Source: a virus. From it: a stretch of DNA of 27,304 nucleotides. The DNA is taken from IMG/VR virus record IMGVR_UViG_3300044641_003184, positions 1 to 27,304 of that record. One strand, written 5' to 3'. The position numbers and the translations under genes are program-made. The notes under the pieces were generated by a model that was not told the origin of the DNA, ran no database searches, and was given only the letters and a program-made list of their open reading frames with translations. Shown here piece by piece: positions 21,177 to 26,696 of this stretch (the stretch's first letter is position 1; each line of letters starts with the position of its first letter).

Positions 21177-22709
21177 ATGTCGGAAGTAGACATCACACGT
21201 TTTAAACAAATTTTTGCAGGCCTAGACATTGCGTACGGAACGTACAAGATTGAGAAGGAGCGGCAAGATGGAAAGCAAAACGGGAAAGCCACCATTGTCC
21301 GGCAATCTCCCACGGATGACCTTTGGATCAAGCATCTCAAAGGCGTCGAGCCAAGTCTCGGGATCATACCGATTCGAGCCGATAACACTTGCACCTGGGG
21401 TTGTATCGACATTGATATGTACCCCATCGATCACGTATCTATTATCAAAAAAATCAGACGGTTAGAACTCCCGTTAGTTGCGTTTCGTTCTAAGTCTGGT
21501 GGGCTGCACGTATTTATGTTCGCTAGGGAGCCGGTGACTGCGGCCTACATGCAAAAGAACTTGAAGTTGTTTGCCGCATACCTTGGGTATTCGGGGTCAG
21601 AGATTTTTCCAAAGCAAACGGAGATTTTAGTAGAACGAGGGGACACCGGTAACTTTTTAAACCTGCCCTATTTCGGGGGAGACAATGGCACACGTTACGC
21701 GTACAAAGATGACGGCTCTGCGGCCACACTCGAGGAGTTTTATTCCCTTTACGAAACCTATGCCGTTACTGAAGAAACCGTCATCAAAGAACCGGATAAC
21801 GCTGCGGCTACTCCAGACCTCGTTGACGGTCCTCCGTGCTTACAGGTTCTTTGTTCCCAAGGATTTCCGGAAGGTACACGTAATAATGGACTTTTCAACA
21901 TCGGAGTTTTTCTCCGTAAAGCTAAGCCGGATACGTGGGAGAACGAACTTATGGTTTATAACCAAAAGTTTATGTCACCCCCGCTTCCGTTAAACGAACT
22001 TAATTTAGTTTCCAAACAACTCAAGAAAAAAGAATATGGTTATAAGTGCAAAGATTCGCCGATTAACGGACACTGCAACGCATCGCTATGTAAGACTAGG
22101 AAATTTGGTATCGGTCAGTCTGGTGATATGCCAAGTATCTCGGCCCTCTCTAAGTATGCTTCTGATCCCCCGCTTTGGTTTGTTGATGTGGATGGGCATC
22201 GCTTGGAACTTACGACAGAAGAGCTCCAGCAACAGATTAAGTTTCAAGCTGTTTGCATGAACAAAGTCAACGTCATGCCTCCGACGTTGAAGAAACATGA
22301 GTGGGAAGGAGTACTCAATGGTTTACTTAAACAGATGGTGGAGACGCAGGCAATTACGGAAGCGCCGGAGGATACTTCCAGCGACGGGCGATTCTATGAT
22401 CTTTTGGAAGAGTTTTGCACTCACCTCCAGACTGCCATGGATCGCGAAGAAATTCTTATGGGCCGTCCATGGACGAATGAGGAAGAGAAATTAACTTACT
22501 TCCGGATCAAGGACCTTGAGAACTTCTTAAGCCGAAACAAGTTTGTGATGAGCACAGTCAAGATTGCACAGCGTTTGCGTAATCTTAACGGCAGTCCATA
22601 CTCCACTACGGTCAAGAACAGGACCGTACGAACCTGGCGCATCCCTGCGTACGAAAAACAAGACGCTCCCTTTGATGCAACTTTGCCTAACACGGGATCA
22701 CCATTTTGA
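21177..22709 (+). CDS. AEP-superfamily (TOTE-type) primase with PriL-like cysteine cluster
   Basis: A 510-aa primase or primase-polymerase that would lay down primers for replication. Catalytic motifs of the archaeo-eukaryotic primase fold are present in order: CIDIDMYPID (76-85, D78 and D80), SGGLHVF (107-113, His111) and a third acid at about D156 in RGDTGNFLNLPYF. A second domain has C221 (or C226), then RNNGLFNIGVFLRKA (235-249), C291, C300 and C305, the order seen in PriL C-terminal Fe-S domains. The last 150 residues are helical and may be a DNA-binding or helicase-contact module. The C-terminus (DAPFDATLPNTGSPF) is mildly acidic with a terminal Phe. The start has only a weak Shine-Dalgarno. 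The stop overlaps the helicase TTG start. Confidence 0.75.
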   Translation: MSEVDITRFKQIFAGLDIAYGTYKIEKERQDGKQNGKATIVRQSPTDDLWIKHLKGVEPSLGIIPIRADNTCTWGCIDIDMYPIDHVSIIKKIRRLELPLVAFRSKSGGLHVFMFAREPVTAAYMQKNLKLFAAYLGYSGSEIFPKQTEILVERGDTGNFLNLPYFGGDNGTRYAYKDDGSAATLEEFYSLYETYAVTEETVIKEPDNAAATPDLVDGPPCLQVLCSQGFPEGTRNNGLFNIGVFLRKAKPDTWENELMVYNQKFMSPPLPLNELNLVSKQLKKKEYGYKCKDSPINGHCNASLCKTRKFGIGQSGDMPSISALSKYASDPPLWFVDVDGHRLELTTEELQQQIKFQAVCMNKVNVMPPTLKKHEWEGVLNGLLKQMVETQAITEAPEDTSSDGRFYDLLEEFCTHLQTAMDREEILMGRPWTNEEEKLTYFRIKDLENFLSRNKFVMSTVKIAQRLRNLNGSPYSTTVKNRTVRTWRIPAYEKQDAPFDATLPNTGSPF

Positions 22710-24208
22710 GCGTGACAAAAGTATTCGGGCCTCCGGGAACGGGCAAGACTACGTATTTGTTGAACGTTGTTGACGATCTTCTACAAAACGGTACGCCCGC
22801 TTCACTGATTGGATACTTTGCTTTTACTAGAAAGGCAGCACATGAGGCCAAAGAAAGAGCCTACGCTCGCTTTCAGCAACTCGACTTTAAACACGATCTC
22901 GTTAACTTTAGGACGTTGCATAGCCTTGCTTATGCGAGACTGGGCATCCAAGCTTCCCGTATCGCAACGCCGGAGAACTTCAAGGATTTTGCGGCTCTGG
23001 CCAAAATTAATCTCAATATCGATCGAGGAGACGAGTCGTGGGAAGTTCGCGCTGACCATCCAATTCTCAATGTCCTCAACCTTGCCCGACTCAAAGGGTC
23101 TGACCTCCGGGCCGAATACAACAGAAGTAACTTAGACATTGGGTGGCAACACTTTTATTACGTGTATCAAATGTATCGCAAGTACATGAATGATAAAGGC
23201 CTGCTCGACTTCACCGATTTGCTAGAAATGTTCGCCGATGCCGACGACACCTATTACCCCAAGCTCGAGGTCGCTATCATAGATGAGGCTCAGGATTTGA
23301 GCCCGCTGCAGTGGAAAATTGCTGACAGGCTCATAAAACGAGCCACCAAGTCCTATATTGCCGGGGACGACGATCAGGCCATCTTTGGCTGGGCAGGAGC
23401 GGACGTCCGATCCCTGCTCACGTACCCCGGGGATCAGATTGTTTTAAACCAGTCCTACCGCATCCCGAGGGTCGTTCACGAGTACGGCAATAAAATTATC
23501 AATCGGGTGAAATACCGTGTACCCAAGGTTTGGGACTCCCGTCCAGAAGAGGGTGAGTTGCACTTCTACCAACGCTATACCGACGTGGATTTAATCGATG
23601 GGTCGTGGCTTATATTGGCTCCAACAAATTACATGCTCAACAATGTGCATGAGCATTTAAAGAGCATGGGAGTTTTGTTCGAGCGCAATGGCATCCGATC
23701 GATTGGTGAAGGACCGATTGAGGCCGTGTACGCTTGGGAAGCACTTAGAAAGGGGAAAGAGATTGGAAGTAAAGAACTTAAATCACTGTACACGTACCTC
23801 GGATCAGAAGGAATTGCACGGGGCTTTAGAAAGTTTGTCGGAGATCCTGAGCAATCCTACAGCCTTGAAAGACTTAGAGCAGAAGGCGGATTGGTTGCTG
23901 ACGACAGACCATGGTATGAAAGTCTTACAAAACTTTCCGACGCTAACCGAGTGTATATCCGAGCAGCTCTCAGACGCGGACAGTCACTTCGAGGAACTCC
24001 ACGGATACGTCTCTCCACAATACACGGAGCCAAAGGTGGTGAAGCGGATCACGTTATCATTATCACAGATCTATCTTCTCAATTCACTCGCGAGCAAGAA
24101 GTAAACCCGGACGATATCAATCGCTTGTACTACGTAGGGCTTACCCGAACAAGGAAATCCCTACATATCATTTACCCTCAGGACCAATATAAGGCTTTTA
24201 GGCTATGA
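22706..24208 (+). CDS. UvrD/PcrA-like SF1A DNA helicase
   Basis: A 500-aa ATP-dependent helicase, probably 3'-5', that would unwind DNA at the phage fork. All core motifs are visible: Walker A GPPGTGKT (8-15), motif Ia FTRKAAHEA (40-48), motif II DEAQD (193-197), motif III GDDDQAIFGWAGA (220-232), motif IV QSYRIP (249-254), motif V STIHGAKGGEAD (437-448) and motif VI YVGLTRTRK (476-484). It is shorter than UvrD (about 720 aa), mainly because the 2B-type insertion is small. The start is TTG at 22706 overlapping the primase stop (TTGA), or GTG at 22712; both keep the Walker A loop. The stop overlaps the polymerase start by four bases (ATGA), so primase, helicase and polymerase are translationally linked. 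Confidence 0.9.
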   Translation: MSVTKVFGPPGTGKTTYLLNVVDDLLQNGTPASLIGYFAFTRKAAHEAKERAYARFQQLDFKHDLVNFRTLHSLAYARLGIQASRIATPENFKDFAALAKINLNIDRGDESWEVRADHPILNVLNLARLKGSDLRAEYNRSNLDIGWQHFYYVYQMYRKYMNDKGLLDFTDLLEMFADADDTYYPKLEVAIIDEAQDLSPLQWKIADRLIKRATKSYIAGDDDQAIFGWAGADVRSLLTYPGDQIVLNQSYRIPRVVHEYGNKIINRVKYRVPKVWDSRPEEGELHFYQRYTDVDLIDGSWLILAPTNYMLNNVHEHLKSMGVLFERNGIRSIGEGPIEAVYAWEALRKGKEIGSKELKSLYTYLGSEGIARGFRKFVGDPEQSYSLERLRAEGGLVADDRPWYESLTKLSDANRVYIRAALRRGQSLRGTPRIRLSTIHGAKGGEADHVIIITDLSSQFTREQEVNPDDINRLYYVGLTRTRKSLHIIYPQDQYKAFRL

Positions 24209-26070
24209 CAATTTCATTGTTCCCCCAACTTAAAACGGAGTGGATGGCGCCGGAAGTATTTCCGGATTTGTCTTCCGCAGATGCAATTGCAATTGACTTA
24301 GAAACATGCGACTCAGGAATGAAAACGAGCGGCCCGGGATGGCCAACAAAGAATGGCTACATAGTTGGCTTTGCCTTAGCAGTAGATGGTTGGAAGGGTT
24401 ACTTCCCGATCCGCCACGGGGGAGGGGGCAACCTCGACGAGAAGAAAGTCCGCAAGTTTGTCCAAACTGTTTTGGACTTACCCTGCGACAAGATTTTCTT
24501 CAACGCAGCCTACGACGTGGGCTGGCTGAAGGCCGAGGGCTTTACGATCAATGGGCGCATTATCGATGCGATGATTGCAGCGGCACTTATCGACGAGAAT
24601 CGATTTAGTTACAGCCTGAATGCCTTAGGCTTTGATTACCTGCAGGAAACCAAGTCAGAGCAGGGCCTGCGCGATGCCGCCAAAGAGTTTGGCGTGGATC
24701 CCAAGGGAGAACTTTACAAGCTGCCTGCCTTGTACGTGGGTGAGTACGCTGAGCAAGACGCCGCTTTGACGCTCAAGCTTTGGCAGTTCTTTAAGATTGA
24801 AATGATCAAGCAAGAACTCAGCCCAATCTTTGAGCTTGAGATGGAGCTCTGTCCCCATTTAATTGAGATGACCTTTCGTGGGGTTAGGCTCGATCAAGAC
24901 CGGGCCGAGAAGACGAAGAAGCTGTTCCAAACTCGCGAAAAAGAGGCCCTAGCCAAGATTAAGAGCCTTTCCGGGGTTCAGGTAGATATTTGGGCCGCTG
25001 CCAGCATTGCCAAGGCTTTTGACAAACTAGGGATCGAGTACCCCAAGACCGAAAAGGGCGCTCCTTCGTTTACCAAAAGCTTTCTCAACCACCACGCCCA
25101 CCCCATTGCAACCTCTATTGTGGACGCCCGCGAGTACAACAAGGCCAACGGCACGTTCATTGAGGCGCTTTTGAGTTATGCCCAGTACGATGGACGCATC
25201 CATGGGCACATCAACCAACTTCGTTCTGACGATGGGGGCACCGTATCGGGACGCCTGTCCATGGCTAACCCCAATTTGCAGCAAATCCCAGCCCGCCACC
25301 CGGAGATCGGCCCTGCGATCAGGAGCCTCTTTCTGCCGGAGCAAGACGAAATATGGGCCTCCCTCGATTTCTCCCAACAGGAACCACGGCTCGCTGTCCA
25401 TTATGCCAAATTACTGGAATTGAGGGGCGCGGAGAAGGCCGCAGAAGCCTACACCACTAACCCGGATACCGACTTCCACCAAACAATCGCTGACATGGCG
25501 GGCATTGGTCGTAAGCAAGCCAAGACGATTGGCTTAGGCCTGCTCTACGGCATGGGTAAGGGCAAGATGGCCACCGAGCTTGACCTCTCTACAGAGGAAG
25601 CTGGCGAGCTTATTGGCAAGTTCCACGAGCTTGTCCCATTCATGAAGGGCCTTGTCGTGTCGGTTCAGCAACGGGTGGACCATCCTGCCTCAAACGGGTC
25701 CGTTCGTACCCTGCTTGGGCGCCGATGCCGCTTTAATTTGTGGGAACCCATGGAGTTTGGCCTGCACAAGGCATTGCCTAAAGAACAAGCCGTCTTGGAA
25801 TACGGACCACGGCTCAAGCGGGCGTACACCTACAAGGGCCTAAACCGCCTGATTCAGGGGTCTGCCGCCGATCAGACCAAGAAGTCCATGCTGGCCTGCA
25901 TTCAAGGCGGGAAGTTGCCCTTGCTTCAGGTCCACGACGAGCTTTGCTTGTCCGTAGCCTCGATCGATGAGGCAAAAAAATTCGCCCAAATGATGCAAGA
26001 TTGCGTTAAATTAGAGGTGCCTTCCAAGGTGGACGTTGAATGCGGCCCATCCTGGGGCGAAGCAGCGTGA
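24205..26070 (+). CDS. polA: Family A DNA polymerase with 3'-5' exonuclease, Leu at the 762 position
   Basis: A 621-aa replicative polymerase. The proofreading domain is intact: Exo I DLET (31-34), Exo II NAAYD (100-104) and Exo III YAEQD (181-185). Polymerase motif A is DFSQQEP (388-394), motif B R436-x3-K440-x3-L444-x3-Y448-G449 and motif C VHDEL (576-580). There is no 5' nuclease domain, as is usual in phages. L444 corresponds to E. coli Pol I Phe762, a position where aquatic phages carry Phe, Tyr or Leu; here the codon is TTA at 25534. The gene is the third of the primase-helicase-polymerase unit (ATGA junction) and is followed by a strong terminator. Confidence 0.95.
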   Translation: MTISLFPQLKTEWMAPEVFPDLSSADAIAIDLETCDSGMKTSGPGWPTKNGYIVGFALAVDGWKGYFPIRHGGGGNLDEKKVRKFVQTVLDLPCDKIFFNAAYDVGWLKAEGFTINGRIIDAMIAAALIDENRFSYSLNALGFDYLQETKSEQGLRDAAKEFGVDPKGELYKLPALYVGEYAEQDAALTLKLWQFFKIEMIKQELSPIFELEMELCPHLIEMTFRGVRLDQDRAEKTKKLFQTREKEALAKIKSLSGVQVDIWAAASIAKAFDKLGIEYPKTEKGAPSFTKSFLNHHAHPIATSIVDAREYNKANGTFIEALLSYAQYDGRIHGHINQLRSDDGGTVSGRLSMANPNLQQIPARHPEIGPAIRSLFLPEQDEIWASLDFSQQEPRLAVHYAKLLELRGAEKAAEAYTTNPDTDFHQTIADMAGIGRKQAKTIGLGLLYGMGKGKMATELDLSTEEAGELIGKFHELVPFMKGLVVSVQQRVDHPASNGSVRTLLGRRCRFNLWEPMEFGLHKALPKEQAVLEYGPRLKRAYTYKGLNRLIQGSAADQTKKSMLACIQGGKLPLLQVHDELCLSVASIDEAKKFAQMMQDCVKLEVPSKVDVECGPSWGEAA

Positions 26071-26103: not shown

Positions 26104-26130
26104 GGGGCGGCCTTGCGCCGCCTCCTTTTT
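26104..26130 (+). terminator. Rho-independent terminator after polymerase gene
   Basis: Stem GGGGCGGC / GCCGCCTC (eight pairs, one G-U) with loop CTTGC, then C and TTTTT. It lies 33 nt past the polymerase stop and just before the promoter and palindrome of the RHH gene. The loop and stem resemble the terminator at 21124-21150, so the two bracket the primase-helicase-polymerase unit. Confidence 0.8.
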
Positions 26131-26161
26131 GTGCTACTATCCTGTAAATACAGGAGAGCAC
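26131..26161 (+). promoter_or_regulatory. Palindromic operator / Shine-Dalgarno hairpin
   Basis: A perfect 7-bp inverted repeat TCCTGTA-AA-TACAGGA (26140-26155) is flanked by outer arms GTGCT (26131-26135) and AGCAC (26157-26161). The inner repeat begins at the last base of the -10 box and its right arm carries most of the AGGAG ribosome-binding site of the gene at 26162. As DNA it is a good candidate operator for a dimeric repressor. As RNA it would hide the ribosome-binding site. Confidence 0.6.
26132..26140 (+). promoter_or_regulatory. Extended -10 promoter for the RHH gene
   Basis: TGCTACTAT is an extended -10 element (TG-n-TACTAT), 21 nt before the RHH start codon. A weak TTGCGC at 26113 could serve as -35 with a 16-nt spacer, but it lies inside the terminator stem, so extended -10 recognition is the more likely mode. 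Confidence 0.4.
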
Positions 26162-26401
26162 ATGACCGACGCTACTAGATGGAAATCCGTAATGCTCAGG
26201 GTAGATTCTTACGATCTGCTTAAGCAAATCGCCGTTCGCGATCGTAGATCAATTGCGAGCATTCTCAACGAACTTATACAGAAAGAATGGGAGTGGCATT
26301 TTGGAGTCAAAAACCAAGAAACCCAGCATCAAGTCGTCAAAGACCCAGAGCGACGAGTCAGTAACCACGGACCACGGAACCCGTTCCTCGCACGCGGATA
26401 A
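26162..26401 (+). CDS. Ribbon-helix-helix (CopG/Arc-like) DNA-binding protein
   Basis: A 79-aa protein with AGGAG six nt... before ATG at 26162. Residues 6-46 fit the RHH fold: a basic beta strand (RWKSVMLRVD), helix A (SYDLLKQIAVRD), a turn RRS and helix B (IASILNELIQKEWEWHF). RHH dimers bind palindromes through the strand, and a palindrome lies directly over its own promoter and ribosome-binding site, so autorepression is likely. The last 30 residues (QETQHQVVKDPERRVSNHGP and onward) look disordered and overlap the start of the next gene in another frame. A longer in-frame reading from 26036 would run through the terminator and operator and is rejected. RHH antitoxins are an alternative, but no toxin gene is adjacent. 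Confidence 0.65.
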   Translation: MTDATRWKSVMLRVDSYDLLKQIAVRDRRSIASILNELIQKEWEWHFGVKNQETQHQVVKDPERRVSNHGPRNPFLARG

Positions 26402-26696
26402 GGTCTTGGAGTGGATTGATGAGACCTTTGAAGTCATCATTTACCCGAGTGGCTTTGAGGATTGCATTGTGGGGGTGGGAGAACGATTCGGGGGGCCGCC
26501 GGTGGCCGTACTGGATGTTGAGAAGATGTTTAAAAAAATGGAAAAGGATGGAATGACACGTGAAGAAGCGATCGAATACTTCGAGTTCAACATTTTGGGA
26601 GCCCATGTGGGAGAAGAAAATCCCGTTTACCTCCACATCCCGGACTTTAAAATTGAAACAAAAACTACAGGCAGAAAAGGAGCGCAGACAGAATGA
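26301..26696 (+). CDS. Conserved phage protein of unknown function
   Basis: The conserved-looking part starts about 26390: HADKVLEWIDETFEVIIYPS, GFEDCIVGVGERFGGPPVAV, then KMEKDGMTREEAIEYFEFNI, LGAHVGEENPVYL. This DGM-x-x-EEA-x-E-x-FEFN pattern recurs in small proteins of many aquatic phages and has no known function. No ATG lies near the 5' end. I chose TTG at 26301 because GGGAG sits seven nt upstream, giving 131 aa and a 101-nt overlap with the RHH gene. TTG at 26253 (147 aa) and TTG at 26406 are alternatives. The stop overlaps the next start (ATGA). Confidence 0.6.
   Translation: MESKTKKPSIKSSKTQSDESVTTDHGTRSSHADKVLEWIDETFEVIIYPSGFEDCIVGVGERFGGPPVAVLDVEKMFKKMEKDGMTREEAIEYFEFNILGAHVGEENPVYLHIPDFKIETKTTGRKGAQTE

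Follow-up and report, generated by a model that had tools for sequence, protein, structure and literature searches.

Organization of the locus downstream of the DNA polymerase gene

We analysed a 27.3-kb viral DNA fragment (27,304 nt; IMG/VR record IMGVR_UViG_3300044641_003184), the whole of which is hereafter referred to as the window. The last of its replication genes (24205-26070) codes for a DNA polymerase of family A; among named phages, DSL-LC04 (64 %) and Pelagibacter phage HTVC023P (54 %) have its nearest relatives. Elsewhere in the window, a phage primase carrying the AEP domain of TOTE conflict systems (PF22548, 6.8e-11) is encoded at 21177-22709, flanked by genes for a Pam3 gp34-like protein and for a UvrD helicase.

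On the 3' side of the polymerase gene lie, in this order, an intrinsic terminator, a T-tract, an extended -10 element, a palindrome with AGGAG in its right arm, and the ATG of a small gene. The terminator hairpin (26104-26124, plus strand) and the adjoining T-tract (26126-26130) close the polymerase operon. The extended -10 element TGC-TACTAT (26132-26140, plus strand; hexamer 26135-26140) ends on the base at which the palindrome begins. The palindrome, a putative operator, spans positions 26140-26155 and is composed of TCCTGTA (26140-26146), a central AA (26147-26148) and TACAGGA (26149-26155), the right arm holding the Shine-Dalgarno signal AGGAG (26152-26156, plus strand). The gene that follows (26162-26401, plus strand; ATG at 26162, stop at 26401) encodes an Arc-like ribbon-helix-helix (RHH) protein of 79 amino acids. 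The coordinates given in the initial annotation were right, and its extended -10 box, AGGAG within the right arm, RHH gene and preceding terminator were all correct by sequence.

The promoter is devoid of a good -35 element: a TTGCGC located by eye at 16 bp overlaps the terminator hairpin, and a generic sigma-70 scan did not include the RHH promoter among its listed promoters. Given a spacing of 6-8 nt from the -10 hexamer, transcription is predicted to start at 26146-26149 (plus strand), i.e. at the palindrome centre.

The RHH protein and its family

Assignment of the protein to the RHH class, as first proposed from the sequence, was right, though weak by standard libraries. The profile PHROG 3180 (‘Arc-like repressor’) matched the window protein with E = 5.7e-5, as well as 9 of 14 family members. 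No Pfam match was found above cut-off (RHH_4 reached just 0.067, in 2 of 5 members), and a comparison with solved RHH structures gave no sequence match above cut-off. The structure model, a low-confidence monomer (pLDDT 66), shows extended residues 9-13 followed by helices at 14-27 and 31-57; a model built from 5 sequences had made the ribbon helical, and the use of 14 sequences brought partial improvement only. Foldseek matches to the model were mostly RHH proteins (Arc, AtaR, TacA, KacA, AvtR), each of them non-significant on its own (E > 3). Membership of the RHH class is thus supported, the basis being a single profile match of modest strength and models of low confidence.

The putative ribbon, WKSVMLRVD (residues 7-15), is identical in all seven proteins encoded next to the palindrome and differs in the RHH proteins of phages devoid of it. 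Proteins starting with MTDxxK[WY]KS define a wider RHH family, present in 163 IMG/VR stretches (L111-L184); several of its members display A+T-rich palindromes overlapping a -10 box. No RHH relative was recovered by a single-sequence IMG/VR protein search, by tblastn in named phages or by a scan of GTDB genomes.

Conservation and copy number of the palindrome

As a bare palindrome, the site is unremarkable. The whole window contains 22 arm pairs (arms of at least 7 bp, spacer of at most 6) vs 12.5 +/- 3.5 in shuffles, and such a pair is expected by chance in about 1 % of 45-nt stretches preceding a gene, as estimated from shuffled stretches. A fortuitous palindrome, created by a strong ribosome signal lying beside a promoter tail that happens to match it, had to be considered, palindromes of such size being common in the window. 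The significance of the site comes from its conservation and not from its rarity.

Six close relatives (L004, L005, L009, L010, L044 and L045) were gathered through an IMG/VR polymerase search combined with an RHH search; together with the window they make seven sequences, representing only about four independent clades. The palindrome is found at the equivalent place in 6 of 6 relatives. It is unchanged in L004, L005, L009 and L010, and the left arm reads TCCCGTA in the sister sequences L044 and L045, this being the sole change over the seven sequences (15 of 16 columns invariant). Its register is likewise fixed in 7/7, always between a TGnTAnnnT box, itself kept throughout, and the RHH start, and AGGAG is invariant. 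In the adjacent polymerase gene, four-fold-degenerate sites have reached saturation over the same seven sequences, with pairwise identities of 40-75 % and 13 % of sites invariant. The stretch CCtGTAAAT, covering left half and centre, is dispensable for the ribosome signal, and 8 of its 9 columns are invariant; at 0.128 per site, such invariance has a probability of about 6e-7, a rough and post hoc figure. That the site has been kept despite saturated divergence, down to left-arm bases for which no other role is known, disfavours a chance origin and makes it very unlikely.

The initial annotation had suggested a search for further TCCTGTA/TACAGGA sites, and none turned up: each record contains one exact copy, also where the contig is 60 or 65 kb long, and no second copy with at most 2 mismatches exists elsewhere in these phage records. 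When a degenerate promoter-plus-operator pattern was run over IMG/VR, an RHH gene was matched only in the close-relative group. A broad scan of TATCCTGTANNTACAGGAG returned matches with no RHH gene behind them, and these were not accepted as related. The exact promoter motif TTTTGTGNTANNNT occurs once per record in L002, L004, L010 and L045, always before the RHH gene and immediately past the polymerase terminator, records without the palindrome included. A testable consensus of the putative operator for this RHH family is TCCYGTA-AA-TACAGGA.

Since the site overlaps a host-type promoter, it might serve a host regulator instead of the RHH protein. We regard this as unlikely, because the site always adjoins the RHH gene and occurs nowhere else in the phage records. 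Additionally, the LexA box of gamma- and betaproteobacteria is CTGT-N8-ACAG, a spacing that CTGT-N4-ACAG does not fit.

DNA site versus RNA hairpin

In RNA reading through the terminator, the palindrome arms may be part of a larger stem-loop (26131-26161, plus strand), in which they are flanked by outer arms GTGCT (26131-26135) and AGCAC (26157-26161). The read-through RNA (26126-26185) folds at -14.5 kcal/mol (z -2.4), and at -15 to -18 in four relatives. The stem-loop is predicted in 6 of the 7 read-through leaders; L044 folds no better than shuffles. A leader starting at 26147, i.e. from the RHH gene's own promoter, is predicted to form no hairpin over AGGAG: with its start at the palindrome centre, this mRNA would be deprived of the left arm, so that masking of the ribosome site would be possible only in transcripts that have read past the terminator. 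As the terminator is conserved, little read-through is expected.

The inner stem displays no compensatory change (0 of 6 pairs), and one pair is broken by a C-A mismatch in L044 and L045. In contrast, the terminator hairpin, kept in 7/7 sequences with 100 % of cells paired, shows compensatory changes in 4 of its 8 stem pairs. Covariation visible in the palindrome is limited by the right arm, which is held by the ribosome signal; nevertheless, the AA loop is invariant and it is the identity of the bases, not mere pairing, that is conserved, which favours recognition of the bases. RNA-level masking of the ribosome site, as initially put forward, is therefore weak. A purely RNA-based element, in which the hairpin would hide the ribosome site and the DNA would hold no operator for a protein, would agree with the stem-loop predicted in most read-through leaders; we judge it very unlikely given the predicted loss of the left arm from the own-promoter mRNA, the lack of inner covariation, the invariant loop and the pair broken in one clade.

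The outer arms had also been proposed to extend the symmetry of the palindrome. They are ruled out as part of a DNA dyad, GTGCT standing 4 nt from the left arm and AGCAC 1 nt from the right one, and in L005, L009 and L010 they do not form a clean inverted repeat. At the RNA level, pairing of the native outer arms exceeds that of random arms drawn under promoter and Shine-Dalgarno constraints (P 0.004 over all seven sequences; P 0.001-0.08 with one sequence per clade) and that of swapped arms (P 0.03), which is suggestive of pairing slightly above chance.

These values are among the arguments for a dual lock as in T4 I-TevI, with the site acting as an operator at the DNA level and folding over the ribosome signal in read-through RNA. 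The same 16-bp sequence would then have two selected functions, and the autorepressed promoter would be the only productive source of repressor. Such a layout matches that of I-TevI, gene e and others in T4 (PMC2988022, PMC3014915), and the read-through RNA folds well whereas the own-promoter RNA does not. Against it stand the inner stem with its mismatch and without compensation, the L044 fold at shuffle level, a loop and arms conserved base by base, and a terminator that should leave little to read through. We hold this dual lock to be a tentative possibility, doubtful on balance. From the two-level switch that the initial annotation had read in one sequence, the DNA operator is retained; the RNA level is weak, and both levels cannot share one transcript, so that a double lock would possibly act on two different transcripts.

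Range of the site and organization of the operon

In phage DSL-LC04, the terminator, a TTTTGTGnTAnnnT promoter and a small RHH-like gene are kept after the polymerase gene; the palindrome is absent and the RHH-like protein is only about 17 % alike. Marine relatives, with polymerases 50-53 % alike, have a similar RHH gene after the polymerase gene, without the palindrome or the terminator-promoter unit. In the clade with polymerases 73 % alike, the polymerase gene is not directly followed by an RHH gene, and one of its contigs carries an RHH relative elsewhere, again without the palindrome. The expectation that relatives keeping the RHH gene also keep the arms thus holds in 6 of 6 close relatives and fails in more distant phages with a similar RHH gene, from which we conclude that the site is specific to one lineage. 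The phages bearing both the gene and the palindrome are a little-studied group of water phages.

Two distant RHH genes, in L161 (2948) and L162 (1456), have a TTGACA promoter. Close to its -10 position, at some distance from the ribosome site, lies the palindrome CCCATA-TG-TATGGG. The half-site CCYRTA resembles the putative operator described here, a post hoc likeness that we mention as a lead.

The RHH gene is followed by a second operon gene (26301-26696, plus strand) that overlaps it in another frame, about 100 nt being coding in both. This gene starts with TTG, about 8 nt downstream of a conserved GGGAG, and both start codon and signal are kept in 4 relatives. Its relatives occur in large Bacillus phages (34-38 % identical, E down to 8e-9) and in many IMG/VR contigs; one from a Bacillus phage is annotated, probably wrongly, as ‘RNA polymerase sigma-G factor’. 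An RHH gene stands upstream of them only within the close-relative group. In L103, a run of about ten small genes begins with the RHH gene. This position at the operon head, together with the single copy of the site in 60- and 65-kb contigs, suggests that the RHH protein is likely to limit its own operon rather than run a regulon.

Proposed mode of action

Altogether, we consider it probable that the palindrome is the operator through which the RHH protein represses its own small-gene operon, with or without an additional lock on read-through RNA. This reading is favoured by the conservation of the site, its position, its single copy and its co-occurrence with an invariant putative DNA-reading ribbon, features that also lend good support to the DNA autorepression proposed at the outset; the fact that promoter, Shine-Dalgarno and hairpin constraints share the palindrome bases counts against it. 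Host RNA polymerase would initiate at the extended -10 element just past the terminator of the polymerase operon, approximately at the palindrome centre, and would produce an mRNA with a short leader, covering the RHH gene and the about ten small genes behind it. As the RHH protein accumulates, two dimers, one per TCCTGTA half, would cover the -10/start region; once bound, they would stop initiation and cap expression of the operon. The original observation is confirmed and its interpretation partly supported: the site probably serves as a simple and well-conserved operator for autorepression, in an RHH family that is new.

Comparison with known systems

Arc-type RHH autorepressors (e.g. P22 Arc and Mnt, plasmid CopG and MobC, RHH antitoxins such as RelB) provide the first term of comparison, the likeness being a small RHH-like gene with a palindrome immediately in front of it, over its own promoter; here such a site lies over the -10/start region in seven phages. 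The putative operator has a sequence of its own. Unlike in some of the Arc-type systems compared, no toxin or antisense partner of the RHH gene was seen.

The closest precedent for a combined control is I-TevI of phage T4: its protein product acts as a repressor of the late promoter, and the ribosome site is closed off by a hairpin in upstream transcripts only (PMC2988022; PMC3014915). For I-TevI and gene e, the own-promoter transcript loses the 5' arm of the ribosome-site hairpin, as is predicted here. The differences are that the regulator is an RHH protein here and a homing endonuclease in T4, that the promoter is of the host -10 type instead of a T4 late promoter, that a terminator intervenes, and that the RNA side is a prediction. 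Pairing upheld by compensatory change was not observed (0 of 6 inner pairs, with weak support for the outer arms), and we therefore do not claim the I-TevI-like part. If the read-through lock were true, phages unrelated to T4 would have a control that is compact and I-TevI-like; otherwise, the locus illustrates ordinary phage gene control. The gene and its site are a familiar type of switch, ordinary in kind. The analysis yields a testable, moderately useful putative operator for a family encountered in many aquatic phages, for which no Pfam entry passes the cut-off.
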